DNA from: Zygnema cylindricum
Lineage: Eukaryota; Streptophyta; Zygnematophyceae; Zygnematales; Zygnemataceae
Reading direction: 5' to 3'
Length of the DNA stretch: 64,000 nucleotides
Assembly (NCBI GenBank): GCA_037447655.1
Contig: JBBHKE010001155.1
Coordinates: 232,909 to 296,908, forward strand
Below the pieces are notes generated by a model, which worked only from the letters and a program-made list of their open reading frames with translations, did no database searches and was not told where the DNA came from. Made by a program: the position numbers and the translations under genes. Shown here one piece after another: positions 6,617-63,193 of this stretch (its first letter is position 1; each line of letters starts with the position of its first letter).

Positions 6617-9440
6617 TCTAGTCACTCTTTGGTTTCAAACTGCACTTCTCCCTGTAGAAAATTAGTTTCGGGGAAGGCACATGTTTGGTCATCATATCTA
6701 CTACCATCTCGCTATCTGGTCGGTATTCAAAACTGATTATTTTGTTTTCTACTTTCTCTCTAACAAAGCTGAGAGTAATGTCTATGTGTTTGGCGTTAAA
6801 ATAATGTTTAAGATTGGCAGAAATAGCGATCGCTGCCTAATTATCACAAAAAAAAAATTGCACACCACTCTTAAGGTGACTAAGCTCACCAAGCAAAGAC
6901 AAGACCAACATCAATTCTTTTACAGTAGAGCAAGTTGCCATATACTCAGCTCTTTGGTGGACTGAGCAATAATCTTTTGCTGTTTGTTTCTCCAACAGCA
7001 AGCCCCATCACCCACATATAATACATATCCAGAAGTACATCTCCTCATCAAAGCATCACCATAACTGGCATCACTCGAAGTAGTGATGTCAATATTCTCC
7101 CCACCCAAATGCAACCATAAATCCCTAGTTCTTATCAAATATCTAAGGACTCTCTTAGTTGCCTCCAAATCCCTCTTAGTGGGAGCATTTAGACTTCTAC
7201 TCAGCACTCCTACAACTGCATCTAAATCCGGCTGTGTACAATTCATAAAATAGATTAGGCTTCCCACTACTTGCTTGTAGGAATAGTCTGCATGAACTTC
7301 TGCTCTTCAGGACTTAATACCTCATCTTAGACTATGAATCCTTTTTCCTCAATCCCCTCACTTCCATTCTTTAAGTCAATTGGAGTTGTACAACTATTAG
7401 CTTTATCCATCTGAAATTTTTCAAGCATGTTCCCTATTGCTTCCTTTTGAGTCAATTTTATAATCTTTCTTTCTCGGTCTCTTTCTACTTGAATTCCCAA
7501 AATATATTTTGCTTCCCCCATATCCTTCATTTCAAATCTCCCCTTAAGATCGGTTTTCAGTTTATTAATTTTTTCCATTGATTTACTTAAAACAAGCAAA
7601 TCAACAACATAAATTGCAATAAATATAACACCTTCCCCATCTTCAAAAACATAGATTGAGTGATCTGAGCTGATCTCAATATATCCTAGACCGTTAAGAA
7701 ACTCATCAAGCTTCTTATTCCATTGTCGAGGCGTGTGTTTCAAACCATAAAGGGATTTGATCAGCCGGCATACCTTACTCTCCTCTCCTTCCTCTTAAAA
7801 TCTTTCGGGTTGTCTCATGAAGATCCCCTCTTCCAATTCTCCGTGCAAAAAGGCTGTCTTGATATCCATCTGGTGCACCTTTTTGTCTTCTGGTGTTGTC
7901 AGACTGAGAAGTATGCGGACAGAGGGAAATCTGACGACTGTGGCAAAGGTTTCCTCGTAGTCAATTCCTTCATTCTGTTTAATTCCTTTTGCAACTAATC
8001 GAGCTTTGTAACGCTCAATGGTGTTATCCGGGTTCACTTTTAATTTGAAAACCCACTTATAACCGATTGGTTTTCGGTTAGGTGGACAGTCTACCAGCTC
8101 CCAAGTATCGGCTGCCATAATTGAGGCCATCTCCTCATTGATGGCTGTCTTCCACCGGTTCCTTTGTGGACAAGTCATCGCCTCTCTATAAGTTTGAGGT
8201 TTATCTTGATGAGATAGTTTTTTACCTTGTTATTAACCTGTTTTTCTTGCAATCTTTTGCAACTTCTCATTCCCCCCTCAAAATCTATGGCCATAATAGA
8301 TGGTTCTCGTGGGTTCTTTAGAACAATCTCGGCTTCTCCCCTATCCCTTGATTCCAAATCAATTTCCAACACGTCTTTTGCTTTGGGTAGAGTTGTCACT
8401 GGAGTTTCCACAGCCGAGTCCTTTTCGGTCTGATTTGTACCTACAAGAATGTCATCTTCTCTAAAACCTGGATAGTTGGGAAGCTCAAAGTCATCCGAGT
8501 TTTCTGACTCAAATCTGATATTACTGACTTTGTATACTTGAAGGGATCCATAGACTTTCCTTCATCCATAACTACTAGATGCTTTACTAAGATTATATCT
8601 TCCCATTTTAGATCATAAACTGTAGAACCATTTACATCCTTATCATATCCTAATAAGTATCCCGGTTTTCCTTTAGGATCTAGCTTCCAATTAGACTGAT
8701 CTGTATCTAAACATAATACTTGACTGCCGAAAACCTTTAAGTGAGATATGTATGGTTTCCGGGTGGTCCATCTCTCATAAGGCGTTTGATCATTTATAGC
8801 TAAAGTAAGAAATCAATTTTTGAGGTAATTATTATTGTTCATTCTTTTTCCCCAAAACCTTTTTCCCGTCTTCTTATCCAACAATATACTTCTACCACTA
8901 TCACTTAGTGTCCTATTTAATCTTTCAGCTACCCTATTTTGTTTTGGGTTTTTTGGAACTATCTTTTGGTGTTAGACTCCATCTTCCCTCAAAAAATCCT
9001 CAAACTAGTTAGAAGTATACTCTCCAACATTGTCACTCCTTACTCTCTTGATTGGAGTTTCATGGAGTTTTTCGCTCCATGATTTATATCTCTAAAACAA
9101 TCCTAAGCTTCTGACTTGTTTTTCAAAAAAATACACCCTGGAATACCGAGACCAATCATCAGTGATAGTCATCATAAATCTCTTCCCCCCGGGTGAGGGC
9201 ACTTTGGTTCGTCCCCAAATATCATTGTGTACTAAATCTATAATTTTTTCTCCCTTATAGGTGGCTTTTTGGGAAAGGATAATATGTGTACTTTACCTTG
9301 AGCACATCAACTACAATCATTTAGATTCTCACTCTCACCGAACTTAATCCTTTCCACCACTCCCATCTTTTTCATCTATCTTAACTTATCTAGATTCACA
9401 TGCCCAAGCCTTTTATACCACATCATTATATCATGAACAC
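6617..9440 (-). pseudogene. Copia-A1 pol remnant: integrase, reverse transcriptase, RNase H
   Basis: Element order runs from high to low coordinates. Integrase remnants (zinc-finger tail CAQGK-like, and a degenerate LNRTLSDS-like helix near 8930) lie at about 9440-8900. Reverse transcriptase at about 8178-7327 has the copia signatures WELVDCPP, GYKWVFKLK, YKARLVAKG, QMDIKTAFLHG and a degenerate YGLK.APRQW block. RNase H is at about 7267-6640, with SDASYGDA, RRCTSGY and, degenerate, STKELS. The catalytic YVDD box reads YVVD (near 7598), a loss of one essential aspartate. Several stops and frameshifts split the frame. Copia-A2 (24358-26160) is the closest copy. Confidence 0.88.
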
Positions 9441-10935: not shown

Positions 10936-10950
10936 GGTGGGTCTATAACT
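10936..10950 (-). other. Primer-binding site of Copia-A1 (half tRNAi-Met type, decayed)
   Basis: Directly next to the 5' LTR. On the + strand it reads GGTGGGTCTATAACT, against GGTGGGCCCATAACC in the anticodon arm of plant initiator tRNA-Met. The three mismatches are all C to T on this strand, as expected from deamination after insertion. No match to the tRNA 3' end (TGGTATCAGAGC) follows this LTR. Confidence 0.75.
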
Positions 10951-12031
10951 TGCAACTTTGAGACCTCCATAGGTCGTTAGAATGGACAGCTTGCAAGACA
11001 TAGGTCCTCAGAATGGACAGCTTGCAAGAAGCCTCTAGGATAACCTTGACCCCTTCGTGTTTCAGGAACAATACTACCACCCTAGCAAACAAATACTCTG
11101 ACCACCTGCACCCTTGTGAAGGGAAGACTCCCTTGAGTCGATAGCAAAAAGAATCTCTGAATTTGCTCCTCTGAGCAATGAGTTATGGAGGGTCAAAGTT
11201 GACCTTTTGTACACAAGCTCTCTAGGAGAGAAGGTCCTATCTACCAAATTTTTCTAAGTTCTATCTCTCTCTAAAAGGCTATCTACTGACGTACGGCACC
11301 GATCATATTCGTGTACCATACAGAAAGGTATAGCTGTCGGTGTACATTATGTTTGAACTTTGTACGACATGACCAAAATGTCGACACATGTTTTATCTGG
11401 ATTCGTTTCCATAATCCTTAGAGATGGTGAAATCCAATGTCGTGGTGCCACGTGTCATCCGATGTGGCAGCGACTATAAACTGCCGAAATCTTCTTCCGC
11501 GATCTCGGCATTCTTTTCGGCCGTTCGATTGAATGCCGATTTCAATCATAGCCGTCATAAATATTTGCGATGTATTTGTTTCTCTATCGAAACAAATGAG
11601 CGGTACTTATTTTTTCTCCGTACTCGTAATCCGTACTTTTCATAACTAACTCTATATATCCCGTATGTAGTTGTCGTTAAATGAATTAGCCTATATGTTA
11701 ACGTTTATATATTTGTAAAACCTTATATCGTATACCACTGTTCCTATACTAAATAGATGTGGCTACCGCCTACCGGCGGCAATACCTATCCGTAGGTACC
11801 AGGATCAAATCCTGTAACCAACAACTCTCCTTTTAGTAAATCAACTACTTTACTACCCCGTAAATCTCTGGATAGCATAGGCAGCCATGGCACTAGATTC
11901 CTCTCCAACTTCTCAGTGACTTCAACAAGTGTGAAAGTTGGAGAGAGAAGTTAGAGACAGACTGCCTCGGCTTCTTTTTCTGCACTTTATTTAAGACCTA
12001 AAAAATACTAAAAGAACCATCAATTTCTACA
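10951..12031 (-). repeat. 5' LTR of Copia-A1
   Basis: TG...CA on the element strand (TGTAGAAATT at 12031, ...GTTGCA at 10951). It aligns with the 3' LTR after removing solo LTR H, and shows a small tandem repeat of about 30 bp near its inner end (10966-11030, 'cctccataggtc...ggacagcttgcaag'). It contains G-box CCACGTGTC near 11449 and, on the + strand, a T-arm-like palindrome CAGGATCAAATCCTG near 11800. Confidence 0.9.
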
Positions 12032-21020: not shown

Positions 21021-22055
21021 TGTAGAAATTAAAGGCTATTTTAGTATTTTCTAAGTTTTGTTAAATGTAGAAAAGAAGCAGAGGCAGTCTACCTCTAACT
21101 CCTCTCTCCAACTACCACGTTGGTCGCAGTCAGTGAAAGTTGGAGAGGGAGATAGAGCCATGGCCGCCTATGCTATCCAGACGGGGACATACATTAGATT
21201 GGTAAATTTACCAAAATATTTATTGACGAACCCGGGATTAGAACCCGGTACCAACCGTCCGGCAGAACTACATTTAGCCGGTAACATTAGCGAATTAGAC
21301 TAATATCAAGGTTATACGATATAGGGTTTGATAATTACATAAATTTGTACACGTAGGCTATTTCATTTAACAGTATATTTGAACATAGAAACAGTTTGTA
21401 ATGTACAGCGTACGGAATATTAAAAACGGATACCGCGCAATTTGTTTCAAAGGCGAAACAAATATTGCTCACGTATATATGACGGCTTCGATTGAAATCC
21501 GGTTTAATCGGATTGTCGCGAAGCATGCCGAGATCGTGGAATAGTTTTTCGGCGGTTTGCGGTCAGCGTCACATCGAATGACACGTGGCACAACCATATT
21601 GGATTACGGCATCTCCGGGGATTACAAGAATGAATCCAAAAATGACATGTGTCGACTTGTTGGCCATGTTGTACAATGGTCGTACAGAAAGTACACCGCC
21701 ACCTGTCCTATTCTTTACGATACAGTATTATGATTGGTGCCGTACATCAGTAGATAGAGTTTTAGAGAGAGATATGACTTATAAAAATTTCATAGATTGG
21801 ACCCTCTCTCCCAGAGAGCATATGTACAAAAGGTCAACTTTGACCCTTCATAACTTACTGCTCAGGGGAGCAAATACAGAGATTTTTTTAATTATCAACT
21901 CAAGGGATTCTTCCCTTCATAGGGGTCAAGGTGGTCAGATTTTTTGTCTGCCAGGGTGGCAGTTATTCTTGTTGAAACACAAAGGGGTCAGGTTTATCCT
22001 AGAGGCTTTGTGTGAGCTGCCTACTCTGAGGTCCTATGGAGGTCTCAGAGTTGCA
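21021..22055 (+). repeat. 5' LTR of Copia-A2
   Basis: TGTAGAAATT...GAGTTGCA. Landmarks: an inverted pair CTCTCTCCAACT / AGTTGGAGAGGG (21102-21150) near the start; a T-arm-like CCGGGATTAGAACCCGG (21236-21252) on what reads as an antisense tRNA-like stretch (about 21222-21303); and G-box ACACGTGGC near 21582. The ATG that opens Gag lies at 22036, inside the LTR, 20 bases before its end. Confidence 0.92.
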
Positions 22056-23555
22056 GGTTATAGGCCCACCATCTAGGTTGCCCATATTCAATGAAGTTGG
22101 CTTTATATACTGGGAAAGTATGATGACAAGATCTCTATGTGAGAAACAGTTTTGGGGAATAGTGAGTGGACGAGTGGGGCGTCCATCAAGTCTTGGAATC
22201 CCTCCAGGGTTTGGAGGAAGCAGATTCAGAAGGAAAGCAGATCAATCTTCAACGAAGGAGACAAAGCAAGGGGAGGTGGTGGACAAAGGAAAGGAGAAGG
22301 AGACGATCACACCAATAGCAACCGGTTCTGCATTCATGTCACCTATTCCGAAGAACGAGGAGAATGATATCGATACCTGGGACTACAACAATATGGCGGC
22401 TAAGCACTTCATCCTCCGCCATCTTACTCAAGGGCTTGCATCTCCCTATTTGCAGGGAGAGAGGGCATCCGATCTTTGGGTGGCTCTCTTAGAGATGTAA
22501 CGAAGTTGTACGATTCATCAACAACAGTTGGCTGATCAGAAAGTTAAGAAGTATGTATACAAAAAAGGGAAGATGTTGGATTTTTGCAATGAGCTTGCTA
22601 CACTTTTCATGGAACTACAGAGTGCTTGAAAAGTATTTAGTGAAAAGGAAAAGGTTAACTGTTTACTGATGAATTTGCCCTATGAGTTCTAGAACATAGT
22701 CAACCGTGTGCAAGACTTTGCGGACTCAAGGTGGATTTGGAATTCAGTGGTAGGGATGATTCTCGTTCGGGAGAATACGATTGAGATCCGAAGGGGAGGA
22801 AATAGTGGGGAAGCTTTGGCAGATGGGACCAATTGGAGGAACAATGATGCCAGGAAACAGGCTGGAAAATATCGAGGGGAGGGGAACGAGGTCAAAATTC
22901 CACGAAAGCAGAAATGTGCTTTCCGTGGATTGAAAGGTGAAGCAGGCTGGGTTGTAGACTCAAGTGCATTCATGCACATGTGTAAAGATAAACACATGTT
23001 CACTAAGATAAGAAAGATTCCCACCGTAGTGATAGAGTACGGGGATGGGAGGATAGTCACTAATACTCTTGTAGGATCGTTATATCTAAAAGTGTTAGTA
23101 GAAGGAAAGACATCCATAGTTGCATTCTCCGATGTATTGTTTATTCCGGAGCTGAACAAAAACCTCATCTCTACGTCTGTATTAGATGATAAGGTTTTTG
23201 ATATTGCACTAGGAAAGGAGTCTTTACTGCTAGTTTTGGGGAGGAAGTTTATTTTACTGCTGAAAAACGTAGCCAATGGATGTTTAGGCTGATTTTAAGC
23301 AATGTAAAGAAGAAACTTTATTCTGCTGTTCTTCATGATATAATGTTGTGGCATAAGAGGCTTAGGCATATGAATCTAGATAAGTTAAGTGAGATGAAAA
23401 AGATGGGAGTTGTAGAAGGAATTCAGTTCGGTGAGGGTGAGAATCTAAGTGATTGTAGTGGATGTGCTCAAGGTAAAGCACACAGGTTACCCTTCCCCAA
23501 AACTGCCACCTATAAGGGAGAAAGGATTCAGTATTTAGTACACACATATATTTGA
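22036..23555 (+). pseudogene. Copia-A2 gag and protease (interrupted)
   Basis: The first frame runs from the LTR-internal ATG at 22036 to 22500: MEVSELQVIGPPSR, then the DUF4219-like PIFN...YWE block, FWGIVSG, MAAKHFILRHLTQGL. A stop near 22498 and frame changes follow. The next frame (22708-23292) holds WNSVVGMILVRENTIEIRRGG, then VVDSSAFMHMC in place of the retropepsin DSGASMHMC of A3, so the protease active site is altered. The zinc-knuckle segment present in A3 is missing, deleted between about 22860 and 22890. The third frame (23280-23555) has the WHKRLRHMNLDKLSEM and CAQGKAHRLPFP pre-integrase zinc finger. Confidence 0.85.
22056..22070 (+). other. Primer-binding site of Copia-A2 (half tRNAi-Met type)
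   Basis: GGTTATAGGCCCACC directly follows the LTR. It differs by one base from GGTTATGGGCCCACC, the complement of the plant tRNAi-Met anticodon arm (GGTGGGCCCATAACC). The same bases are codons for Gag residues V-I-G-P-P. Confidence 0.85.
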
Positions 23556-26160: not shown

Positions 26161-26180
26161 TAAAATAAAGAGTGACTAGA

Positions 26181-26192
26181 AAATAAAGGGAG
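26181..26192 (+). other. Polypurine tract of Copia-A2
   Basis: AAATAAAGGGAG immediately upstream of the 3' LTR; same sequence and position as in Copia-A1. Confidence 0.88.
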
Positions 26193-27240
26193 TGTAGAAA
26201 TTAAAAGCTATTTTAGTGTTTTCTAGGTTTTGTAAAATGCAGAAAAGAAGCAGAGGCAGTCTGCCTCTAACTCCTCTCTCCAGCTCCCACACTTGTCGCA
26301 GTCACTGAAAGTTGGAGAAGGAGATAGAGCCATGGATGCCTATGCTATCTAGACAGGGACAGACATTAGATTGGTAAATTTAATAAAATAGTTATTGACG
26401 GACTCGGGATTTGAACATGGTACTTGCCGTTCGTCAGAGCCGCTCGTAACTGGTAGCCATAGCCATTTAGACTAGAATCAAGATTATACGATATAGGGTT
26501 TGATAATTAGATAAATATGTACACGTAGGCTATTTCATTTAACGAGATATTTGGACATAGAAATAGTTTGTAATATACGGTATACGGCATATCCGAAACG
26601 GATGGCGTGCAATTTGTTTTCGAAGGCGAAACAAATATTGCGCAAGTTTTTATGACGGCTACGATTGAAATCCGTTTTAATCGGACGGCCGCGAAGCATG
26701 TCGAGATCGTGGAATAGTTTTTCGGCGGTTTGCGGTCAACGTCACATCGAATGACACGTGGCACAACCATATTGGAATACAGCATCTCCGGGGATTACAA
26801 GAACGAATCCAAAAATGACATGTTTGGACTTGTTGGCCATGTCGTACAATGGTCGTACAGAAAGTAAACCGGCACCTGTACTTCTCTGTACGATTTTTTG
26901 TTCGATACACTATTAAGATTAGTGCCGTACTTTAATAGATAGAGTTTTAGAGAGAGATAGGACTTAGAAAAATTTGATAGATTGGACCCTCTCTCCTAGA
27001 GAGCTAAAGTACAAAAGGTCAACTTTGACCCTTCATAACTTATTGCTCAGGGGAGCAAATTCAGAGATTCTTTTTGCTATCGACTTAGGGGAGTCTTGCC
27101 TTCACAGGGGTGAAGGGGGTCAGAGTTTTTGTCTACCAGGGTGGCAGTTATTCTTGCCAAAACACAAAGGGGCAAGGGTTATCCTAGAGGCTTCGTGTTA
27201 GCTGCCTACTCTGAGAACCTATGGAGGTCTCAGAGTTGCA
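26193..27240 (+). repeat. 3' LTR of Copia-A2
   Basis: TGTAGAAATT...GAGTTGCA, 1048 bp, collinear with the 5' LTR but with numerous substitutions, so the insertion is not recent. It carries the antisense tRNA-like stretch at about 26394-26476: read on the minus strand, a B-box-like GTTCAAATCCC follows a degenerate A-box-like TGGCTATGGC. G-box ACACGTGGC lies near 26754. Confidence 0.92.
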
Positions 27241-30018: not shown

Positions 30019-30030
30019 TGGTATCGAAGC
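30019..30030 (+). other. Primer-binding site of Copia-B2
   Basis: TGGTATCGAAGC, close to TGGTATCAGAGC, complementary to the 3' end of tRNAi-Met; two bases after the LTR end. Confidence 0.8.
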
Positions 30031-32334: not shown

Positions 32335-32346
32335 TGGTATCAAAGC
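32335..32346 (+). other. Primer-binding site of Gypsy-C
   Basis: TGGTATCAAAGC, two bases after the LTR, one mismatch from the tRNAi-Met 3'-end complement TGGTATCAGAGC. An untranslated leader of about 760 bases follows before gag. Confidence 0.85.
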
Positions 32347-40389: not shown

Positions 40390-40545
40390 CTTTCTAGGAT
40401 AATTTTGGCACTTATTGTACAAATCAAGGTCTGTATTTTAACATAAAGTTTTTTGATTTTTAACTCTTTCTTTTAACTATTTTTTTTTTTTAGACTTTGA
40501 CAAATGCTTCCAGAATAGTTATTTCCTTCGATTGCATCTCCACTT

Positions 40546-41593
40546 TGTAGAAATTAATGGTTTTTAAGTATTTTCTAGGTCTGAATAGAAATAAAGAAGC
40601 CGAGGCAGTCTACCTCTAACTTCTCTCTCCATCTCTCAAACTTGTCGCAGTCACTGAGAAATTGGAGAGGAAGCTAGAGCCATGGCTACCTAGGCTATCC
40701 TCAGGTTTACGGGAAATTTATATTAAACTAGGAATTAATTACTAAAAGATATGTGCCGGCGACAGGATTTGATCCTGGTACCTGCCGGCCGTCACAGGGT
40801 AGATAGCCGGTAGCCTTAGCCGTTAAGTCTAGAAGTAGTCTTACATAGTATATAGTACGATAATGATTTAAATATGTACACGTAGGATAAATCATTTAAC
40901 TATAACTGTTAACGGGATACATAGATATGGTAGTGTAAAAGTACGAATTGCGGTACGGATAAGAAATCAATACCGCGCATTGATTTCGTAAGCGAAACAA
41001 ATACCGCGCATGTATTTATTACGGCTACGATCAAATGCGAGTTTAATCGGACGGCCGGAATTAGCGCCGAGATCGCGGAAGGAGAATTCGGCGGTTTGTG
41101 GGCATCGCCACATCGGATGACACGTGGCGATGAAACATTGGAGCGCGGCATCTCCGAGGATTAAAAGAGCAAATTCGGATATTCCACGTGTGGACATTTA
41201 GGCCATGTCGTACAATGTCGGTACATAAAGTACATCGGCACCTGTACTTTTGCGTACGGGACTGTAATCTGATTGGTTCCGTACATCAGTAGATAGAGTC
41301 TGTGAGAGAGATAGGACTTAGAAAAATTAGAAGATAAGACCCTCTCTCCCAGAGAGCTTATGTACAAAAGGTCAACTTTGACCCTCTATAACTTACTGCT
41401 CAGGGGAGCAAATTCAGAGATTCTTTTTGCTATCGAATCAGGGGAGTCTTGCCTTCACAGGGGTGAAGGTGGTCTGAGTTTTTGTCTGCCAGGGTGGCAG
41501 TTATTTTTGCTTAAACACAAAGGGGTCAGGATTATCCTAGAGGCTTCTTGGAAGCTGTCCACTCTGAGGACTTATGGAGGTCTCAGAGTTTCA
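40546..41593 (+). repeat. 5' LTR of Copia-A3
   Basis: TGTAGAAATT...GAGTTTCA, 1048 bp. It contains the antisense tRNA-like module (40754-40832), G-boxes ACACGTGGC near 41120 and CCACGTGTGG near 41182, and a frame (41360-41614) that overlaps the Gag start out of phase. Confidence 0.93.
40754..40832 (-). other. tRNA-like module in the Copia-A LTR (antisense)
   Basis: On the minus strand the order is: an A-box/D-arm-like segment (CTTAACGGCTAAGGCTACC), a spacer, then GGTACCAGGATCAAATCCTG, in which CAGGATCAAATCCTG (40763-40777) is two changes from the tRNA T-arm CAGGTTCGAATCCTG. The same order recurs in the A1, A2 and A' LTRs with different mutations. I do not call it a tRNA gene: no acceptor stem or clear anticodon arm was established. 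Confidence 0.45.
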
Positions 41594-41608
41594 GGTTATG
41601 GGCCCACC
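41594..41608 (+). other. Primer-binding site of Copia-A3 (perfect half tRNAi-Met match)
   Basis: GGTTATGGGCCCACC begins at the first base after the LTR and is a perfect 15-nt complement of GGTGGGCCCATAACC, the anticodon arm of plant initiator tRNA-Met as I know that sequence. Its ATG, the complement of the CAU anticodon, is in frame with Gag. Confidence 0.88.
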
Positions 41609-43453
41609 CTCTAGGGTACCAATCTTTAATGGAACTGGCTTCATATACTGGGAAAGTATGATGATAGGAGCTCTATGCGAAAAAAGGTTTTGGGGGATAG
41701 TGAGTGGACGATTGGGGCGTCCATCAAGTCTTGGAATTCCTCCAAGGTTTAAAGGAAGCTGATTCACCAGGAAAGAGGATTCACCTTCAACAGAGGAAAC
41801 AAAGAAAAGAGAGGTGGTGGACAAAGGAAAGGAGAACGAGGCGACCACACCAATAGCAACTGGTTTAGCATTCATGTCACCTATTCCGAGGAACGAGGAG
41901 AATGATACTGAAACCTAGGACTTCAACAATATGGCGGCAAAGCACTTCATTCTACGCCATCTCACTCAAGGACTTGCATGTCTTCATTTGCAAGTAGAAA
42001 GGGCATCCGATCTTTGGATGGCTCTCATAGAGATGTACCGAAGTGGTACGATTGAGCAACAACAGTTGGCTGATCACAAAGTTAAGGAGTATGTATACAA
42101 AGGGGGAAATATGTTGGATTTTTGCAATGAGCTTGCTACACTCTTCATGGAGCTAGACAGTGCGGGAAAAGTTTTTAGTGAAAAAGAAAAGGTTAACTGT
42201 TTACTGATGAAGTTACCTGATGAGTTCGAGAACATAGTCAACCGTGTGCAGGACTTGCTGGACTCAAGGTGGATATGGAACTCAGTGGTAGGGATGATTC
42301 TCGTTCGAGAGAATACGATTGAGATCCGAAGGGGAGGAAAGAGTGGCCAAGCCTTGGCAACAGCGACCGATTCGAGGAACAAGGATTCCCGGAAACAAGT
42401 CAGAAACTATAGGGGTAGGGAGCAGAAAAAACAGGCTGACGTGTTCGAACCAAGGGCTCCCAAAGGTTTATGTCATTTTTGTAAGAAACCGGGGCACTAT
42501 ATGGCAGAGTGCACTAAGCTAACCGAGCTTCGGTTAAAGGAGGGACAGACCGGTGGTACCCCGAGAGGAAAGAAAAAGGCCCTTGTCACACAGGTACTTG
42601 AGGCGGAATCCGAGGATGAGGACGATGAGCTTCTTTTGGATGAGGAGTTGGAGGCGAAAACTGAGGTTGAAATTCCACGAAGGCAGAAATGTGCTTACGG
42701 TGGATTGAAAGGTGAAGCAGGCTGGATTATAGATTCAGGTGCCTCAATGCACATGTGTAAGGATAGGCACCTGTTCACTAAGATAAGAAAGATTCCCACC
42801 GTAGAGATAGAGTACGGGGATGGGAGGATAGTCACCACTACTCTTGTAGGATCGGTAGATCTGAAAGTGTTAGTAGAAGGAAAAACATGTATATTAACAT
42901 TCTCCGATGTATTGTTTATTCCGGAGTTAAACAAAAACCTTATCTCTACATCTGTATTAGATGATAAGGGTTTTTTCACTAGCACTAGGGAAGGAGTCTT
43001 TACTGCTAGTTTTGAGGAGGATGTCTATTTCATTGCTGAGAAAGGTAGCCATGGGATGTGTAGGCTGATCTTAAGTAATGAAACGAAGAAACTTTATTAT
43101 GTTGGTGTTCATGATATTATGATGTGGCATAAGAGGCTTGGGCATGTGAATCTAGATAAGTTAAGAGAGATGAAAAAGATGGGAGTGGTGGAAGGGATTC
43201 AGTTCAGTGAGAGTGATGATATAAGTGATTGTAGTGGGTGTGCTCAAGGTAAAGCACACAGATTACCCTTTCCTAAAACAGCCACCTATAAGGGAGAAAA
43301 ACTTCTAGATCTAGTACACACAGATATTTGGGGACTGGCTAGAGTGCCCTCACCGGGGGGGAAGATATTTATGATGACTATAACTGATGATTGGTCTCGG
43401 TATTCCCGGGTGTATTTTTTGAAAAACAAGTCAGAAGCTGAGGATTGTTTTAG

Positions 43454-43532
43454 ACACAAAGGGGTCAGGATTATCCTAGAGGCTTTTTGGAAGCTGTCCA
43501 CTCTGAGGACTTATGGAGGTCTCAGAGTTTCA
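43454..43532 (+). repeat. 3' LTR tail of Copia-A3
   Basis: 79 bp matching 41515-41593 with one mismatch. The junction to integrase is at a short ACACAAAGG-type overlap. Confidence 0.92.
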
Positions 43533-44526
43533 CACTTTACTGTTACGATTGAAACTTGTGCTTTATACCACGACACACACAAGATTTAGAATTAGAAGCT
43601 TCGAATTCCACTTGTCCATCTTTAACTTTGTTTGCTTTAATGAATGCTTCTAGCACATCTATTTACACACTAATGCTGTTTCTGTTTGTCAATATTGATT
43701 GAAACTTGTGAATGTTAACATGACATACACAAGATTTAGAATTGGAAGCTTAGTATTCCTCATGTCAATTTTATTTTTATTACAATTTGAAAGTAAAAGA
43801 TGAGAAAAAATTGCTCCACCAACAATTATCCATTCGATAGTCCTAAAAAGAAACCCAAAACTATCGGAACAACTTTTGTCTCAATGCACTACTTTTTGTA
43901 ACAAATCAATCCACAAAATTTGAAAGAAAGAACGAAAAAGAAAACAAACTTTCGAGCATTTTTTTTGGTGTATGCTTAAACACCTATTTTTTTTTAAGAG
44001 ATATAAAAAGGTCTGAAGAGAGTTAAAACATAAGACTTTGTAACTTCCGTTAGGTAAATTCCAAAAAAAAATTATAATTTTTTTTTCCCCTCACATAAAA
44101 CTGTATGAAAATTCTTGTTAAAGAAATAATTGATGACCCATAAAACCCGTTACCCGTAAAGAATCCCCTCCACCCAAAAAATAAATGAGGTTTATAGAAA
44201 GTTCCGATCAAAAAAGCCATAGGAGGGGCTTCTTCAAACCCTCCAATCCACACTAAACCCGATATCAGAATTGAGGTACAACTACTACTCTCAATATCAG
44301 TTAAAATGTCTTCTCGACAAGTTGATTCGACGAAAATCTAAGATTTTCCAAATGCGGTATTAAAGAGGGCATTGAAAAGTTATTTAAACTTACAAAATAT
44401 TTTTTAACTAAGTTTGTAGGCATGGGTTGCGATTTTTTTATTCAACATTTTAAATTTACATCTATCGTTTTGATAAACCCACTTCCTATTGCGAATTCAA
44501 AAATCGTATTTTCTTGCAAACTCTTC
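43533..44526. other. AT-rich intergenic DNA with a local duplication
   Basis: A block of about 65 bp containing GATTGAAACTTGTG...ACACAAGATTTAGAATT at 43548-43613 recurs in diverged form at about 43697-43763. No gene is recognised; the longest frame (67 codons, minus strand) has no domain. Confidence 0.5.
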
Positions 44527-46004: not shown

Positions 46005-46765
46005 TGAAAAAGGACGACAACCTTAGAAATTCAACAGTCGGAAAAAGATTTGGCGCGTCGTCAAGATCCAACGGCTAACGTTGATCGTCGTATTTCAAAC
46101 AGACGGCACGCAAGAGTGCTGGCCTGCCCAAATGGCTATTTTGGCGACGCTTCGCGAAAATGGAGGAAAATGACATGTGGCACCATCCTATAGGATGTCG
46201 GAGAAGAAAAGGACAGAATGGCGACGACTTATTTGCCACGTGGCAGACCAAAAGCGGTGCCCCATAATTCCGTACATAAAGTACAGCGGTTATCGTACTT
46301 TGTATATATATTATATAATGTATGATATTTTGAGTAAGTTCTTAGTACTTAGACTTTTTTGGAAGCCCTCTCTCCCAAAGGCATTATGTATAAATTCAAT
46401 GTCTTTGAACAGCCATAACTTAATGCTCATAGGAGCAAATTCAGTGAATCTTTTTGCTACGGACTCAAGGGAGTCAAGCTAGACACGGGTATAATCGGTC
46501 AAAGTTTTGCCTATCAATGTGGCTGCATTTCTAAAGGAAAGTCAAAGTGGGGAATGTTATCCAAAACTCATATTCTAATTTTGCATTTTGTGGTGGAACT
46601 AAGCTCACATAAAGTCTTATTTCACAAGGGTGAGAATGTAATGAGGTTCTGATTCTAAAGGGGTCAATCATTTGGGTTTATATAACCTTAGAGTCGGCAC
46701 TATCTAGATTAGCTTCTTTGGATATGCGAACTCTGTGTTGGAGCCTCTATAGAACTTTTAGATGG
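46005..46765 (+). mobile_element. Truncated LTR, Copia-A' family
   Basis: Shares with 2944-4105 and 49738-50826 the segment from the ACGTGGC box (near 46239) through 'cgtacataaagtac', 'ggagcaaattcagtgaatc', 'ggaaagtcaaagtgggg', 'gtggtggaac' and 'agtcggcactatctaga'. The 5' part is missing. It abuts Gypsy-D gag on the left and a purine tract on the right. No target duplication is evident. Confidence 0.7.
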
Positions 46766-47830
46766 GGAGAGGAAACGAGAGAGGGAGGCCTGAAGGAAGG
46801 GGAAGGAGAAAGAGGTGGGGGGGAGGGAGGGGGGCTTTGAAGGAGGAGGGAGGGGAGGAGAGAGGAGGAGAGAATGTCGAGAGAGGAGGTGAGAGAGAAG
46901 AGAAAAAAAAGGAGGGAAGAGGGAGGAGGGGAAATGAGGAGAGAGGGGTGAGAGGGAAAAACAACAAGAGAAAAAAATGAATGGTGAGAGAGGAAAAGGG
47001 GGCGTGAGAGAGGGATGGAGTTAGGGAGGAAGACTCGGAATAAAGAGAAATGGGAGAGAACGAGAGGGGGGTAAAGACTTAGGGACCGAGGGAGAGAACA
47101 AGTGAGAGTGGGGGTTTTGGGCAAAAGGCCAAAGTGAATGAAATGGGAGAGAGAGGAAGAGGTGAGATAGGGAGAGGGATGAGGGGAGAGGAGAGTGCAA
47201 GTGACAGAAGGAAAAAAGGAAAGACGGCAAGAGGGAGAGAGATCGAGGTGAGGGAGAAAGAACAAAAGAGAATAGAGATATAGTGGGTATAGGGGAAAGG
47301 AGAGGGAGAGAGGAAAGGCAGCGAGAAAGAGGGAGGGAGATGAGGAAGGTGTGAGTTGAAAACAGGTCTAAAAGAGTGGGATGCAGCGCCTGCAGGAGAG
47401 TGAGAGAGGGAGACAAATAGATCGATCAAGAAAAAGGTAGTAATTAACGGAGAGCGGGAAAGAGGGAGATGAAAAGATGGTAGTAGAAAAAGTGGAGGAA
47501 AGTGGTAGAAGAGGAGGGGGGGTTGGGGAAAGGTAGGTCATGAGGGAGAGGATTTAAGAAGGGAAAAGAAGGAAAGAGGGAGAGATGGAGGGAAAGAGGG
47601 GGAGTGCAAAGAGAGACAAGGGGACAAAGAGGTGGAGAGGGAAGAGAAGGTTGTGGGGTTTGGGGAGGGGTGAAAGGAGGTACTTAGATTATTTTGAGGG
47701 AGAGGTAAAGGGGAAAAATGTGAGTGGTGAAGGGAAGAGGAGCGATGAGAGAGGGAAAGTGGGAGAAAGGAGTGGAAGACGGTGAGAGGGAGAGAGAAAA
47801 ATAGGCGGCTAGAGGGAGGAAGACTGATAT
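46757..47830. repeat. 1.07-kb purine-rich (GA) tract
   Basis: Almost entirely G and A on the + strand, irregular GAGAGGGAG words with islands of ordinary sequence. Long Ser/Pro/Leu-rich frames on the other strand are compositional artefacts. Confidence 0.85.
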
Positions 47831-48654: not shown

Positions 48655-49737
48655 AATCAACATAACGAAATTGGGAGTGGAAGGTTTGATTTTTGTTAAA
48701 CAATTTAAAAAGCATTTAAAGGATAAAACAAATCATGCTTTCTTGTTATTAGTAACTGAGGCATAACTGATGAAGGGGGGGGAGAAAACACTAACATTGA
48801 CGTTATCCCTAAACTAGACACGACAAAAAATGTTGAAAAAAAAATTGATTTTCTAATTGCCATTAATACATCTGATGTTGCTATTAAAGATTTGATATTT
48901 GAATTTCGAGATGTTTTCTCAACTGACTTAGCCTCATGGAGGCCAGCTTCTCGAGATGTGGAACATGTTAGTAACCTTGAACCTGGATGTTAGCCTCTTG
49001 TCACAAGAATTTATAATCACAGTTTCTTTGAGTAAGAAGAGTTAAAGAAGCAAACTAAAGAGCTTGTGGAGAAAAGACATATTCAGCCCACCAAATCACC
49101 GTACGGAGCACTAGTTCTCTTAGTCAAACAAAAGGACAAAACGTTCAGAATGTGTGTCGACTATCGTAGTCTAAACAATATTACGGTGAACAATAAGTAT
49201 CCGTTACCTTTAATTTATAATTTGATACATCGCTTAAAAGGTGCTAAAGTATTTTCGTTGATTGATGTGCGTAGTGGCTTTAATCAGGTGCCAATTAGAA
49301 CTGAAGATGTTGATCAAACTCCTTTTAGAACTAGAGGCGGTCATTTTGAATGGACACTGATGCCATTTAGTTTGACGAATGCACCGCCCACTTATCAAAG
49401 ATTAATGAACGAAACATTTTTGGATTATATTGATAGGTTTGTTCAAGTGTTTATAGATGACATCCTAATATATAGTGAATATAAATAACAACATGTAATT
49501 CATTTAAGGAAAGTATTGAAAAGGTTACGAGAAAGAAAATTGTATGGAAAATTGTCAAAATCCAGTTTTCTTAAAAATGAACAATCATTTTTGGGACATA
49601 TAGTTAGTGGGGAAGGTGTTAAAAGTGATCCATCAAAAATCACTACAATTCAAGATTGGAGGCAACCTACTAATATCACAGAAGTTAGATAATTTTTGGG
49701 GTTGGCCATTTATTACAGGAAATTTATCATAAACTTA

Positions 49738-50826
49738 TGTATTGAAATTCTATGGGTTCCATTTCCCCACAAAAATCCCAAACCTAAATAAACTTATCTA
49801 GATAGTGCCGACTCCAAGTTGATACAAAGCCAAATGACTGACACCTTGACAGTTAGAACTCGTATACAGCTTCACCCCTGTGAAATAAGACTTTTTGTGT
49901 GCTCGGTTTCACCACAGAATGCAAAGCTTGAACATGTGTTTTGGATAGTATTCCCTGCTTTGACTTTCCCTTAGAAATGTCGCCACCCTGGCAAGCAAAA
50001 ACTCTAACCGACTACACCCCTGTGTAGCTTGGACTCCCCTGAGTTTGCAGCAAAAAGAATCACTGAATTTCTCCCCTTTGAGTGCGCAGCAAAAAGAATC
50101 ACTGAATTTTCTCCAGTGAACAGTTAGTTATGGCTAGCCAAAGAAGGCCTATAAATACAAAAGGTCACTTGGAGAGAGGCGCCTCAAACACGCTAAGTCC
50201 ATTATTTCCTACTCACACCTACCTACTACTGTACCCTAGACCAATCAAAAGAGTGTATAGTACAAGCAGGTAAAGTGGCCGATTGTACTTCTTGAACGAC
50301 CATTGTACAACATGGCCTTCTGGTTGACACTTGTCAGCTTGGGAAGCATCGTTCCTCCTCCAATCTTTTCTAGCGTTCAATGAAGTGGCGCCACGTGGCA
50401 CAGCGCGCCGCTATGTTCGAAAGCCGCCAAAGATTCGTTCACGTTTGGCGGGGCCGTTGTTGTCCGTCCGATAATGTATTTTACACGTTTAGATTCGCGT
50501 CCGCGAGCACCGTTTGACTATAGATGCCGTTCCGTCAATTTTGGTATGTTTAAGTGAAAGTGATGTTTTTGTAACACTTTATATAATTACCAAACCACGA
50601 ACATGTTTGTTATGTTAATGCCTTAATGGTTAAAGCGTATGTCTATAAAGTAATTCGTAGATCTAGGTTTAAATCTTGTTTAGGGTAACATTTTGGTAAT
50701 CTATCAATCTGTTTGCATGTCTGTCTGTTTTTTTTTTACTATGGCGGCAACCATGGTGACTCTCTCTCTCTCTCTTCACTCTAGATTGTAAATTAAGAAA
50801 TGAATATTAATTACTTATTTTTAACA
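49738..50826 (-). mobile_element. Solo LTR, Copia-A' family, inside Gypsy-D reverse transcriptase
   Basis: Interrupts the codons of YYRKFI.N...MIATPLTDLL, which are contiguous in Gypsy-C. Ends are TGTATTG (left) and TTAACA (right), i.e. TG...CA, 1089 bp, close to the 1048 bp of Copia-A LTRs. It carries the CCACGTGGC G-box near 50390 and, on the + strand, a tRNA-like stretch at 50612-50690. A perfect target duplication is not seen (ACTTA left, AGTAT right). It is the most complete A' LTR here. Confidence 0.85.
50612..50690 (+). other. tRNA-like module in the Copia-A' LTR (antisense to the LTR)
   Basis: Order of parts is as in a tRNA: D-arm/A-box-like TTAATGGTTAAAGCG, an anticodon-arm-length stretch, then AGGTTTAAATCTTG, close to the T-arm/B-box GGTTCGAATCC with C to T-type changes. 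It is the clearest example of the module seen in A LTRs. No CCA-proximal stem was confirmed, so it is probably a decayed tRNA or tRNA-derived SINE captured by the LTR. Confidence 0.5.
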
Positions 50827-53866: not shown

Positions 53867-55242
53867 CGACCGTGCACAGTCTGTGACCACCGTGCACAAG
53901 GAGGAGACTTTTTAGAGACTGAACGTGTAAAAATAGGCCGCGTGGAAAAGGAAATAAAAATCAACGATGAGTGCTCGCGCATGTGCGTACACGTGGCAGG
54001 GGCCATGTGCCTTTCGCTAGGGTTGTTGCGAATCCGCCGAAATTATCCGGTCACGCTCCCACCATCAAAGTTTGCCATCGCCTTTTTATTGTTGCGTTTT
54101 GAAATTTTGGGTAGTACATTATAATACCCTATGTACAAGTCATTAATTACCTCCGCTGGTACCAATATTACCTTCGCTTGTACAAATATTACCTCTGTTT
54201 GTACAAATATTGCGTTCAAACTTTGCATTCTAAGATTCTTTGAAGATTTTAAGCATTTTAAATTTACTTACATGTTACCTACCAGAATGAGCCATGCAAA
54301 TAAAAAGTGGTTAACTGACGCGATCTAATGGAAGTCACGCTTACATAACAAGTTTATCGAGTTCTTGAACCGTTTCAATCATTTCAAAAGCTCCTTGCCC
54401 TAGGGCTAGAGAATTCCTCCAAAATATTGGAGGGGCGACAGTCACCTAAACACCATTTTAGGCGAGGGAGGCATTAGTGGTAGCGAGATACGCCCAAATG
54501 GAAGGCACCCCTTCAGTAAACTTTTCTGTACAGTTATCGAACCGCCTAATGGAAGGCCACCCTTATAAAAACTCACGAAAAAATAGTACGTTATTGTACG
54601 GTCAAGTACATATTACTCACTTTTTGTATGATGTAATTGCACCTTTATTTCCTAGGCCCTATCTGGCCGCTAAACATTTGCATCCATTGAGGGCAAACGT
54701 CATATGATGTGTATTGCCAGGTATCTGTTTTCGCCGTACATTGCACGCGGAAAAAAATGAAAAAAAGGCGGGGGCTCAATTCTTTGCGGCTATCTCACTA
54801 AGGGGAACCTTCCATCAGGCAAAAAGTGGGGTTGTTTACTAGAAAAAGTAACTTTTCGTACTAAGCCGTACTGTTTTTTTTTTTTTTTACAAAAAATGTT
54901 GATTAGAAATTCGTTAAGATTCTCCAAAAATTTTAGCAAAAACTTCCACTGTCTGATTTTTAATTTTCTCACGCAAACGCCATTTTTATCTAGTGTCTAG
55001 CTAGTCTCCTCCGACTGTCCTCAGGAGGACACTTTACGCTTACTTGACACGAGTATTGGTCCACTTGTAAATGTCAGAGTCGATCCACGACGGACTTGAT
55101 ATTATAAACCTACATGTGGCAAATGGCGTGTACCTTGTGACATTAAAGCCACTCTGTTCGATGACAAAATCTTGGTTGTATGACATCCTATCACGTCTCC
55201 GCTGGTACAGCGGTAATACATGAACGTACAAATGGTACATTC
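53867..55242. other. Intergenic DNA, distant repeat of 59352-60600
   Basis: No gene recognised. Some words recur in diverged form beyond Copia-E (for example 'cgcctaatggaaggccaccctta' near 54540 against 'cgcctgatggaaggttacccta' near 59668, and 'gagggcaaacgtca' near 54686 against 'gagggcatcttgacgtca' near 59773), so both regions may be copies of one unidentified repeat. It holds a 21-bp triple repeat (54146-54208) and an oligo-T run near 54875. Confidence 0.45.
54146..54208. repeat. Three tandem 21-bp units
   Basis: ATTACCTCCGCTGGTACCAAT, then two variants ending TTGTACAAAT, at 54146, 54167 and 54188. The 21-bp phase is exact. Confidence 0.9.
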
Positions 55243-56055
55243 TGTTGGTTTTGGAAACCTTTAGTCCTCTCTATATCTCGTGTGTGAGAAAGAGAGTCTA
55301 GACTTAGCCGCTTTTTGTGTACAGATTGAGTTGACGTAGACAAGATGTGGTGTGGTATGTAACTCCAAAAGGGAGTTCACAGATTTGGTACACTCTATGT
55401 ACACGTGTCGGTCCGTGGGGAAGTCAAGCTTGGTTGAGTTGGTTGACAAAGTACATATTTACTTGAGGGGCCAGATTTACACGTGGAGGTTCATCTTCGG
55501 TGATGAATGAATACGCGGACGGCGGACGGAGTTGGCCGTCATTTTTGGAATAGAAATATTGATCGTCATTTCAGCGGATTAACTTTCACTGCGTACTTTA
55601 GAAGCGGCTAGGGTTAAGGATTGATGTAAAAACTTGTACGGTAGATGGCGAGGTTTAGTTTGATTAATGTTTAGTGTACCGACACACCACGGTAAATGTG
55701 GTACGGTGTAGATCAGCTGTAGGTTCACTTTGTATATGTAGGACTTAGAATATTTTGGAGTTAGGAATTAAATGAATGGAAAATTGCGAAGCAGTTTTTG
55801 TGTCTTTTTGAATTGCAAGATCATTGTGATATTTTAGCAGAACCCTTAGAAATTCTGCATGTGGTTTCTTTGTTATACTGTTTATTTTGTGGCAAATTTA
55901 CAGATCTAGTGTGTGACTGGTTTGCTTGGGGATTCATTGTGAAGTCGGTCTTTTTGTGGTTTCCGTGAGAGTTTCATCTTTTGTAATATGAATATTATGG
56001 CAACTGCTGGTGCTTCTTCTTCCTCCTCTGGGTCACCGGTTGCCTCAAATCAACA
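55243..56055 (+). repeat. 5' LTR of Copia-E
   Basis: TGTTGGTTTTGG...CAAATCAACA, 813 bp, defined by the target duplication and by the matching tail at 59306. It has G-box-like ACACGTG near 55400 and 55474. The Gag ATG at 55988 lies 68 bases before the LTR end, so about 22 Gag residues are LTR-encoded. Confidence 0.88.
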
Positions 56056-56070
56056 GGTCACGGGCCCACC
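56056..56070 (+). other. Primer-binding site of Copia-E (half tRNAi-Met type)
   Basis: GGTCACGGGCCCACC directly after the LTR, two changes from GGTTATGGGCCCACC. It is read in frame as Gag V-T-G-P-P. Confidence 0.78.
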
Positions 56071-59305: not shown

Positions 59306-59351
59306 GTGCTTCTTCTTCCTCCTCTGGGTCATCGGTTGCCTCAAATCAACA
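59306..59351 (+). repeat. 3' LTR tail of Copia-E
   Basis: 46 bp matching 56010-56055 with one C/T difference, ending AATCAACA next to CATTC. Confidence 0.9.
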
Positions 59352-61913
59352 CATTCATGGACATTTGTACAAATTTTTATTTTCCAACGGTTTTCGTAAC
59401 CGTTGGTACAATGACAAATACAAGGACGTACAGATTGTACATTAGCGTGACGTTATTAGATATTTTAATCTGCGTCCGCCCGTACAGATACGCAGTTGCG
59501 ATTTTGTCCTTTTCAAAACTTTCATTATTCCCGGGCGGCTCAAGAGGATCCTACGTGGTACCAGTTGCAATCTAACACGTAAACAGTGTTTTCTTCGCTT
59601 GCATGACCTGCTGGAAAGGTGTTACAAATATTACTGCCAGTAAACGTGACCGTACGATTACTGGGAACGCCTGATGGAAGGTTACCCTAATTGAGCATTT
59701 GAGCTCGTGCATATTTGTTTTTTGCGGGTCATACCTTCTTCAAAAACAACTGTGTTGTACGCTATGCTGTTTAGAGGGCATCTTGACGTCAAATGACATC
59801 ATCAAAAGCATCCGTACCTAATCCAAAAATCTTGAAACGTTCTTAAATATTTCGTACGACCGTTCCACACCTCAGTGACACGTGTACTTTCAAGGTGTAA
59901 TTTTTTTCCCAATTCGGTCAAAAAAACTGCATGACGAAGACGACTTCCGATGGTGAACTACAGTACACCGCGAATCTTAAAATTAGAGTTAATAGCACTA
60001 ATTATTTTTTGTCATTTTTTACACTAATTATTTCTCTACTCTAATTACGTAACACAGTGGACAGTAAACTGTCTTGTTTTAACGCATGTAACCGTAGAAA
60101 TGGTCGGCCGCCAGCTCCACACGGGATTGTTGTTTTTTATCGATCTCAATGGTACGGAAGACAGGATTTTATCATATTGTTCATCATAGAAGTTTCGTGT
60201 GAATGTCGGTAATAAGATTGGAGGTTACTTGACACTTGCCCACTTGCGTCCGATTGCGCCTCGATTTTGTAAGAAGAGGATTTTCATCTTTGTCGCATTT
60301 ACCTAAAAATTAGAAACACATTTGGTTTTTTCTTAAACATTTTTTGTCCTCAGCGTCCGCGGCCAATCTCTCGTTTGAGTCGTTTCACTTATTTTTGTCT
60401 CGTCCCAAAACAAGAGAGCTCACACCAGCTGTTGATCATTGTTGTGAACTCCAAAACGAAATCTAAGCTGCTCGGGTGTTGACTCTCAGGTGTCAAATCC
60501 GTAAGGGCATATTACCATGTAACCGAAACTTAGTCTTGCTTCTTTGTTTTTTAGCTAAGATTTTCCGAAGTACTTTTCAGGGCGTTCCTATGTAACGCAA
60601 TGAAATCCTCACTTTAAATTGTGACGGATGTAGACGAGAGTGTAATTTGTGACGGTTGTAGACGACGACAAAATTGGCGGCAATTGATGACGTTTACAAA
60701 ATACCGATGGTTGTAGACTTCTAGTTTCTTGTGACATTATACATGTCAGGGTTTGTGACATTTTGACGCCATGCTCACTTGTGATAGCGTAAATGTCACT
60801 AACTACGCAACTTTCCGCCATGGTTTCCCGATTTTGTTTTTTTTGTCTTTTCTCACTCTACCTGCCATCAAACTACTCCCAAAGATAGCCAAAAGTAGTC
60901 TTTTTTAGAGATCTTTCACTTGATACCATTATTGTCGTTATTCATTCCAAAAATTGTGAGGTAAATGGGGTAGTGGGAGAGGGAGAGAGAGAGACGCGCC
61001 TTCACGGGCTTCGCTTTTGCAAAATGGCATCCGTTGCTCAAAAACTCCTCCACGGCTCTTGCACATGACAAAGTCCGCACAAGCTGTAAACAAACGCTGG
61101 TTTTTTTCCTTGCCACCCCGCATTCGGCAAAAAAAAATTCAAAAGAGTGTGACGCGTGCCACACTGTCTTCCTATTCGCTCATAACTTGTTACTTTACCT
61201 AAGATCAGCGCGCGAAGTGACTTTAGAAAAGTTTGAAGATGAACTGAAGTGACGCGAAGTGGGTTGATAGCAAGACGGCAAACTGTAGTACATTCAAAGC
61301 TGAAAGATGGTGCACATTGTACTGTCGTGTTTTCATTTTTTGGGTACGGCTGAAGAAGTTCTCACTGCAAACTAAATTTTGGACGAAAACTACTGAAAAT
61401 AACCAGTACTTTATCACATGGGAACATGCCCTAAGTCTCTTTAAGACTATTGGCAGACGCATCCACATTCCAGTCAAGGTGGTAAACTCCACATTCATGA
61501 TGTTGTGTACACTGTGGAACTGGGTATCGTGAGATGTAATGCTTTACTGAATCATCAATTTTCTAATCACTTTACTTCTTAACATATGTTCCCATGTGTT
61601 AAACTACGTGTTTTCCCTTGTCTTTGAGTCCAAACCAGAGCTTGCAACAGCAAAATCTCATGACATACAAATAAAATGTCAAAACTATAGTACAATTTGG
61701 GTAATATTGAAACTTAAAATGTAGTACAACTTGTCGCCTTACTCTTCTCGACCCAATGCGACGTATTTCCAGCACATTTAAAAACTTCACCTAAAGACAA
61801 CTTGCGAATTGATTAGTTTAAAGTAACGGTCGAACAACGAGTAAGATTATGTTTTTGCAAGTGTTATAGAATTTTAAAACAGATTTGCAAAGCGCAGGGA
61901 ACACAAGAAAAAA
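59352..61913. other. Intergenic DNA, no gene recognised
   Basis: Open frames are all under 100 codons and lack recognisable domains. 59352-60000 has diverged matches to 53867-55242. Near 60622-60665 a GTGACGG(A/T)TGTAGACGA unit occurs twice. It may include unrecognised exons or regulatory DNA of the SRPK neighbourhood, but nothing in the sequence shows this. Confidence 0.45.
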
Positions 61914-62912
61914 CGAGGAGAGGAGAGGAGAGGGCAAGGAGGGGAGGAGAGGGGAGGAAAGAAGAGCAAAGGAGAGAAGAGGAGAGGAGAGGAGATAAGG
62001 GGAGTCGAAGAGAGGAGAGGAGAGGAGAGGGCACAGAAGGGAGGGGAGGGGAGGGGAGGGGAGGGGAGGGGAGGGGGAGGGGGAGAGGGAGGGGGAGGGG
62101 GGGCGAGGGGGAGGGGGGGGGGAGGGGGAGGGGGAGGGGGAGGGGGAGGGGGAGGGAGAGGGAGAGGGAGAGGGAGAGGGAGAGGGAGAGGGAGAGGGAG
62201 AGGGAGAGGGAGAGGGAGAGGGAGAGGGAGAGGGAGAGGGAGAGGGAGAGGGAGAGGGAGAGGGAGAGGGAGAGGGAGAGGGAGAGGGAGAGGGAGAGGG
62301 AGAGGGGAGGGAGAGGGAGAGGGAGAGGGAGAGGGAGAGGGAGAGGGAGAGGGAGAGGGAGAGGGAGAGGGAGAGGGAGAGGGAGAGGGAGAGGGAGAGG
62401 GGGAGGGAGAGGGAGAGGGAGAGGGAGAGGGAGAGGGAGAGGGAGAGGGAGAGGGAGAGGGGGAGGGAGAGGGAGAGGGAGAGGGAGAGGGAGAGGGAGA
62501 GGGGGAGGGAGAGGGAGAGGGGGGAGGGGGAGGGGGAGGGGGAGGGGGAGGGGGAGGGGGAGAGGGAGGGGAGAGGGGGAGGGGGAGGGGGAGGGGGAGG
62601 GGGAGGGGGAGGGGGAGGGGGAGGGGGAGGGGGAGGGGGAGGGGGAGGGGGAGGGGGAGGGGGAGGGGGAGGGGGAGGGGGAGGGGGAGGTGGAGGGAGA
62701 GGGGGAGGGAGAGGGGGAGGGAGAGGGAGAGGGAGAGGGAGAGGGAGAGGGAGAGGGAGAGGGAGAGGGAGGGAGAGGGAGAGGGAGAGGGAGAGGGAGA
62801 GGGAGAGGGAGAGGGAGAGGGAGAGGGAGAGGGAGAGGGAGAGGGAGAGGGAGAGGGGGAGGGGGAGGTGGAGGGAGAGGGAGAGGGAGAGGGAGAGGAG
62901 AGGGAGAGAGAG
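61914..62912. repeat. 1-kb GGGAGA / GGGGGA microsatellite tract
   Basis: Hexanucleotide GGGAGA repeats (about 62155-62520 and 62695-62900) and GGGGGA repeats (about 62065-62155 and 62520-62690), led in by GAGGAGAGG. Nearly pure purine on the + strand. Every frame is long and open only because of composition. It has strong triplex and G-quadruplex potential and lies about 0.5 kb past the stop codon of SRPK. Confidence 0.95.
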
Positions 62913-63193
62913 TGTCATTTACAGGTATACCAATATCCTCCCCAACACTTATCATTATACCTAGGAATTCATTCCTTTTAAGTGCCCATTGTGTTCCTCT
63001 ATTTTTTCCTCAGGGGTTTTCTAACAAATCACTATTGTTCATTAAACCTAGACATTTACTGCAAGTGTCCTTTTTTTTGATGTTTTTCATAGAAGGTTTG
63101 CTAACAACATTACATGGAACAGCTATTTTTCCGTTCCAGTTCAGAGCCTCTTAAACGCAGTACGTATCTCATTATGATTATCACCTCCGCTCA

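Follow-up and report, generated by a model that had tools for sequence, protein, structure and literature searches.

Thousands of junction sites complementary to the 5′ half of initiator tRNA-Met, lying inside the gag frame of Ty1/copia elements

Elements of the window and their boundaries

The window, by which we mean the whole stretch of 64,000 nucleotides that was analyzed, carries the LTR retrotransposons Copia-A1, A2, A3 and E together with Copia-B and a gypsy element. Boundaries were fixed by self-comparison, target-site duplications, Pfam and translation, and the features of the A and E elements are given below with position, strand and basis.

7330..7794, minus strand: A1 reverse transcriptase piece (RVT_2; Pfam, E 1.3e-35)
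10936..10950, minus strand: A1 putative primer-binding site (3 mismatches, all transitions; gag ATG at 10970-10968)
10951..12031, minus strand: Copia-A1 5′ LTR (self-comparison)
21021..22055, plus strand: Copia-A2 5′ LTR (pairs with the 3′ LTR)
22056..22070, plus strand: A2 putative primer-binding site (1 mismatch; gag ATG at 22036)
26179..26192, plus strand: A2 polypurine tract GAAAATAAAGGGAG (direct reading ahead of the 3′ LTR)
26193..27240, plus strand: Copia-A2 3′ LTR (self-comparison with the 5′ LTR)
40541..40545, no strand: A3 target-site duplication, left copy CACTT (identical 5-mer at 43533-43537)
40546..41593, plus strand: Copia-A3 5′ LTR, TGTAGA...TTTCA (self-comparison and target duplication)
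41574..41593, plus strand: gag start ATG and first codons (MEVSEF and the first two bases of Q), in U5 of the A3 5′ LTR (translation)
41594..41608, plus strand: A3 putative primer-binding site GGTTATGGGCCCACC (pairs at every base with initiator tRNA nt 25-39; encodes (Q)VMGPP of gag as well)
41919..43586, plus strand: A3 gag-protease-integrase frame in copia order (Pfam)
43450..43532, plus strand: terminal 83 bases of the A3 3′ LTR, fused directly to integrase sequence by an internal deletion (81/83 identical)
43533..43537, no strand: A3 target-site duplication, right copy CACTT (matches the left copy)
55238-55242 and 59352-59356, no strand: E target duplication CATTC (identical on both sides)
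55243..56055, plus strand: Copia-E 5′ LTR, TGTTGG...AACA (target duplication; in-frame ATGs at 55988 and 55997)
56056..56070, plus strand: E putative primer-binding site GGTCACGGGCCCACC (2 mismatches; codes (Q)VTGPP)
59306..59351, plus strand: terminal 46 bases of the E 3′ LTR, fused to integrase sequence (45/46 identical)

The A and E elements are Ty1/copia LTR retrotransposons. Gag, protease and integrase stand before the reverse transcriptase, with RVT_2 found further downstream in A1 and A2, and the 5-bp duplication and TG...CA ends of this group were found in A3 (CACTT) and in E (CATTC), where the duplication also served to locate the start of the 5′ LTR. In the A3 frame Retrotran_gag_2, Pol_BBD and gag_pre-integrs scored above the Pfam cut-offs, and zf-CCHC and rve below theirs. 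The outer ends of A3 and E are complete with perfect target duplications, and the part from integrase to near the end of the 3′ LTR has been lost in both. The 5-mers flanking A1 (CGTGC/CCACC) and A2 (GATTG/TTTTT) do not match, so that neither shows a target duplication. The LTR pair of A2 is 86.6% identical and that of A1 87.0 and 91.8% in two stretches, and by this divergence both elements are old.

Degenerate LTRs or fragments akin to the A LTR, lacking a match to the site, are located at 2900-3700, 46300-46850 and 49680-50450. Copia-B holds a tandem duplication of about 1.28 kb in its pol region (15136-17686) with copies 88.6% identical, and a long purine-rich GAGAGG tract at 61818-63154 generates long low-complexity open frames on both strands. 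The Rfam search of the window gave 0 matches above gathering score.

The junction site, the host initiator tRNA and the copies in the assembly

The 15-mer GGTTATGGGCCCACC begins at the very first base after the A3 5′ LTR, whose end is fixed by the perfect target duplication. This was the starting claim of the preliminary description and it was borne out, as was its statement that A2, A1 and E hold the same site at the same place with 1, 3 and 2 mismatches. All four sites directly adjoin the 5′ LTR end of their own element and are the four best 15-mers of the window; when all 15-mers on both strands were compared with the complement of tRNA nt 25-39, only these reached at least 12 matches. Four matches at up to 3 mismatches were reached in 0 of 100 dinucleotide shuffles (mean 0.73, largest 3).

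The usual site for the 3′ end of the tRNA had been described as absent from the A and E elements and present in Copia-B and the gypsy element, and only the former part stands as it was worded. No TGGTATCAGAGC-like site with up to 2 mismatches occurs at the four junctions of A1, A2, A3 and E, and a canonical 3′-end primer site was rejected for these elements. The sites of the other families are only near-canonical: Copia-B has TGTTATCAGAGC at 12533 (1 mismatch) and TGGTATCGAAGC at 30019 (2 mismatches), and the gypsy element has TGGTATCAAAGC at 32335 (1 mismatch), each of them starting two bases past a CA.

The junction site is complementary to linear nt 25-39 of an initiator-type tRNA-Met. The first comparison was done with a plant initiator tRNA sequence, which was then checked against the genes of the host. 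An 18-base anticodon-arm pattern was found at 9 places of the assembly, where ARAGORN recognized 6 different tRNA-Met genes, and the site of A3 is an exact complement of them; since the search demanded an unchanged anticodon arm, constancy of the arm cannot be read from this result and acceptor-stem variants can. Two genes are identical to the plant initiator tRNA at 72/72 positions. Two others (L032, L034; such numbers are our locus labels) differ from it in one acceptor-stem pair only, L029 in that pair and one further base, and L037 in four bases; L033 is a degenerate place, and L035 and L036 are not tRNA genes.

Paired acceptor-stem changes are thus seen in some of the initiator-type genes of the host (L029-L037), and the gypsy site TGGTATCAAAGC (32335-32346) is the complement of the 3′ end of the L034 variant (..GCTTTGATA plus CCA). 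One idea is that priming by a half tRNA may be a way round such acceptor-stem variation. We take linear nt 39 to be standard position 40, and the register nt 25-39 is presumably the same as that of Drosophila copia. Hemivirus cDNA starts at the 3′-OH of nt 40, in the anticodon stem-loop, according to PMC1181622, and the register of the site agrees with this nt 40 if standard numbering is used there.

The assembly comprises 352,776,454 bases in 2,689 contigs (353 Mb). Over its whole length the exact 15-mer occurs 3,019 + 2,955 = 5,974 times on the two strands and the reversed control 3 + 3 = 6 times. The exact 13-mer TGGTATCAGAGCT, a common form of the 3′-end site, has 89 + 76 copies (control 2), a count that covers the exact form only and makes the ratio to the 15-mer merely indicative. 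Inspection was done of 68 of the 100 places listed, which are the first in contig order and not a random sample. The bases preceding the site are CA at 64/68, TA at 2/68 and CT at 2/68; a gag-like pattern follows at 66/68, an ATG stands 20 bases ahead of the LTR end at 61/68, and a stop lies in the leader or at the junction codon at 8/68.

Twenty loci of ten kb hold 30 sites with up to 2 mismatches, 25 of them preceded by CA. A similar copy of the LTR end was found downstream for 14 of these 30, some of the copies being short or doubtful. Five target duplications were scored in these loci, and as one of the insertions (L028) is without a TG start it was not counted; the four young insertions having target duplications at TG...CA ends show LTR identities of 96.9, 98.2, 99.4 and 99.7%.

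A sample blind to the site was drawn with 138 residues of the A2 gag, starting past the site, as query; 150 of 14,400 candidates were scored and junctions were cut for 20 of the 150. The site was exact in 11/20 and had one mismatch in 9/20, none having more, although one of the 11 exact copies (L056) is shifted by a one-base indel. Copies picked by gag are close kin, so the constancy of the site partly reflects their young age. At position 1 the G of the site is replaced by C in 4/20 of the gag-picked copies (L060, L067, L068, L069) and by A in one (L063); the copies with C belong to both subgroups seen, and their primers may end one base earlier. Among the 150 frames listed, 32 are 1,454 codons long, which is a sign of recent activity.

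Marker genes of the host were searched in the same assembly. Chlorophyll a/b-binding matches number 88 with exons counted apart. The highest total score of one Lhcb exon was with 9vfj_2, where the match covers two stretches of a long chain, and its best single-stretch matches are 7xqp_a and 8htu_U, which we take to be moss entries, with other plant chains close behind. These matches suggest that the host is likely a green plant or related alga. The search for the radial-spoke family, aimed at separating flagellate from non-flagellate hosts, gave no match, and as its controls were equally silent it is uninformative.

Overlap with gag and the reading of the site

The site lies inside a coding frame, a point which the preliminary description had overlooked. 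In A3 the frame reads MEVSEF-Q-VMGPPSRVPIFNG, with gag running from U5 through the site. The gag start of the A elements is located 20 nt ahead of the LTR end and the frame continues through the site as Q-VMGPP, the 15 bases of the A3 site starting with the third base of the Q codon and stopping at position two of the second P codon, and the in-frame AUG of the A3 site stands opposite the CAU anticodon of the primer. By the start-codon context rule the base at -3 matters; on direct reading it is G before the site AUG and C before the leader AUG of A3. The codon in place of the site AUG is ATA in A1 and A2, TTG in L055 and ACG in E.

The leader encoded by the Copia-E LTR is longer, has its ATGs at 55988 and 55997 and leads into Q-VTGPP. 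Both of the E mismatches recur in a further copy whose gag begins in an E-like manner (L024, 3 mismatches), and they therefore look like a family feature rather than decay; two copies judged E-like by eye (L011 and L018) have the site with 0 and 1 mismatch. Several subfamilies carry an in-frame TAA in the LTR-encoded gag leader (MEDT*LQ, METT*FQ, MKDT*FQ), and such leaders were seen in L001, L002, L004, L016, L023 and L082. In L001 (MEDT*LQ-VMGPP) no stop interrupts the frame over at least 505 codons beginning at the site, up to the end of the fetched stretch. In a survey of the open PMC literature, little of which was aimed at this question, no report of a half-tRNA site inside a gag frame was recognized, which is weak ground for a negative.

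Very probably, the primer of minus-strand synthesis in the A and E elements is a 5′ half of initiator tRNA-Met whose last base is linear nt 39. The half-tRNA priming proposed in the preliminary description is well supported at the level of sequence by the position of the site, its complementarity to the tRNA genes of the host, the thousands of copies and the young insertions. The 5′ half of the tRNA, ending in the anticodon stem, would anneal to the 15 bases after the 5′ LTR; the 3′ end of the fragment would pair there, so that the first base copied would be the last base of U5. The reverse transcriptase would then copy U5 from the last base of the LTR, and synthesis would proceed as in other copia elements. 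We infer both the existence of the tRNA fragment and its extension. Pairing of the fragment would have to include the anticodon loop with its modified bases. The variants at position 1 (C in 4/20, A in 1/20) would not be favoured by a primer ending exactly there.

That the 15-mer is no more than conserved gag sequence (Q-V-M-G-P-P-S-R) placed after the LTR by chance, with priming done by something else, is very unlikely. In 5 of the 20 ten-kb loci the site is crossed by a frame that starts ahead of it and has at least 250 codons (274, 601, 676, 393 and 1,057), which is not so in the other 15, and VMGPP with the following P-x-F is common to most sampled copies. Synonymous bases inside the site fit the tRNA (GTT 19/19, GGC 18/19, CCA 19/19), which is weak in 19 closely related rows, and fourfold bases just outside it, at positions 16, 25 and 28, are split 9/7/1, 10/8 and 9/9 in the same rows, from which L056 was left out; yet other fourfold sites outside the 15 bases of the gag-picked sample are equally constant (GTC 19/19, TCT 19/19, GGA 17/17, GGC 19/19). 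This sample thus separates coding from priming constraint only weakly, and as the site is also coding, part of the constancy may come from gag. What speaks against a purely coding site is that the junction has no other primer site and that the fit to tRNA nt 25-39 precisely where the LTR ends would then have arisen by chance.

Next to no probability is given to self-priming of the Tf1 kind or of the kind predicted for TAR elements, even though Neumann 2019 (PMC6317226) predicts it for 12% of its surveyed plant elements, TAR included. The junction should then be complementary to the 5′ LTR, and the longest complementary stretch that the LTR offers has 5-6 bases, a length equalled or exceeded in 166 to 490 of 500 shuffled LTRs for the four elements; TAR-type self-priming was not supported on this count. 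The site also contains an 8-base palindrome, TGGGCCCA, which could serve dimer or hairpin formation close to the actual start, along the lines suggested for the conserved hairpin of fungal GalEa elements; PMC5445492 describes a palindrome that takes the place of a primer site. Such a role is extremely improbable as the explanation, since the palindrome sits in the tRNA anticodon arm itself and the match reaches beyond it on both sides, and since E retains only the core GGGCCC and the 8-base form is broken in A1 and A2. The palindrome may act in addition to priming by the tRNA half.

The overlap of site and gag also invites a conjecture on regulation, which we consider unlikely on present evidence. 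In the lineages with a stop in the leader (e.g. L001) the site AUG would be the start of gag, and one codon would be read both by the priming half and by the intact initiator tRNA on the ribosome; the RNA would then be either translated or reverse transcribed, never both at once, giving a built-in switch between messenger and genome. A1, A2, L055 and E lack ATG there, which runs counter to a required site AUG. With primer site, gag frame and initiator anticodon overlapping in this way, a direct competition of translation with reverse transcription can be put to the test.

Relatives and significance

In yeast Ty1, a Pseudovirus, the gag frame likewise opens within the LTR and extends across the primer site, as in the A and E elements; unlike theirs, the Ty1 primer site pairs with the 3′ end of the tRNA. 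Priming by half molecules is itself an already known mechanism. Neumann et al. (2019, PMC6317226) give half-molecule sites for about 2% of plant elements: the half is from tRNA-Met in Osser, in the moss lineage Bryco and in part of the gymnosperm lineage Gymco-II, and from tRNA-Ile in Bianca. The claimed novelty for land plants, namely that no well-described example was known, is not supported in view of Bryco and part of Gymco-II.

Bryco and part of Gymco-II, both REXdb lineages, are green-plant Ty1/copia elements with a half tRNA-Met site, like A and E, and Osser of the green alga Volvox, listed in REXdb and as an ICTV Hemivirus, has half tRNA-Met priming; the half tRNA-Met site that marks these elements was found in A and E, the likeness being one of the site (PMC6317226; PMC1181622). 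Bianca too has a half-tRNA site adjoining the LTR and differs in using tRNA-Ile (PMC6317226); the A/E site is exact to initiator tRNA-Met, in a comparison which covered tRNA-Met only. The Hemivirus members Drosophila copia and yeast Ty5 are primed by a half tRNA within the anticodon stem-loop and differ in host (PMC1181622). The ICTV separates Hemivirus (copia, 1731, Ty5, Osser) by its short tRNA segment (PMC8515867), and in sequence the site fits this primer definition. Phylogeny does not resolve Hemivirus from Pseudovirus, and a short segment, of 9 bp, is used by Sireviruses as well (PMC3599292); fungal elements with anticodon-loop sites are reported in PMC10886601.

In a reverse transcriptase tree of 48 pieces, the A1 piece groups with 15 from the ten-kb loci in a single clade (100/99), which sits on a long branch and excludes Copia-B of the window and the database hits used; the pieces were picked by likeness to the A1 reverse transcriptase and the tree contains no hemivirus reference, hence it is no test of membership. 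Seven of the 15 (L009, L014, L015, L020, L021, L023, L028) share the orientation of the site and are found, like the A1 piece, some 3.1-3.2 kb downstream of it, and the other 8 may belong to neighbouring copies. Homologues of the A3 frame are 30 proteins of 23-33% identity, all distant, and VMGPP was found near the start in none of the 10 homologue sequences examined, several of them fragments. The A1 reverse transcriptase piece has 7 homologues and that of Copia-B 4,619 among the candidates scored. Relatives in viral contigs were found neither by DNA pattern nor by reverse transcriptase.

The contribution of this genome is one of scale, with thousands of exact half-tRNA junctions, some of them on young copies, in one green-lineage genome. 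Families using the 3′ end of the same tRNA are present alongside, so that the choice of primer, its change over time and the cost of the coding constraint become comparable within one host.
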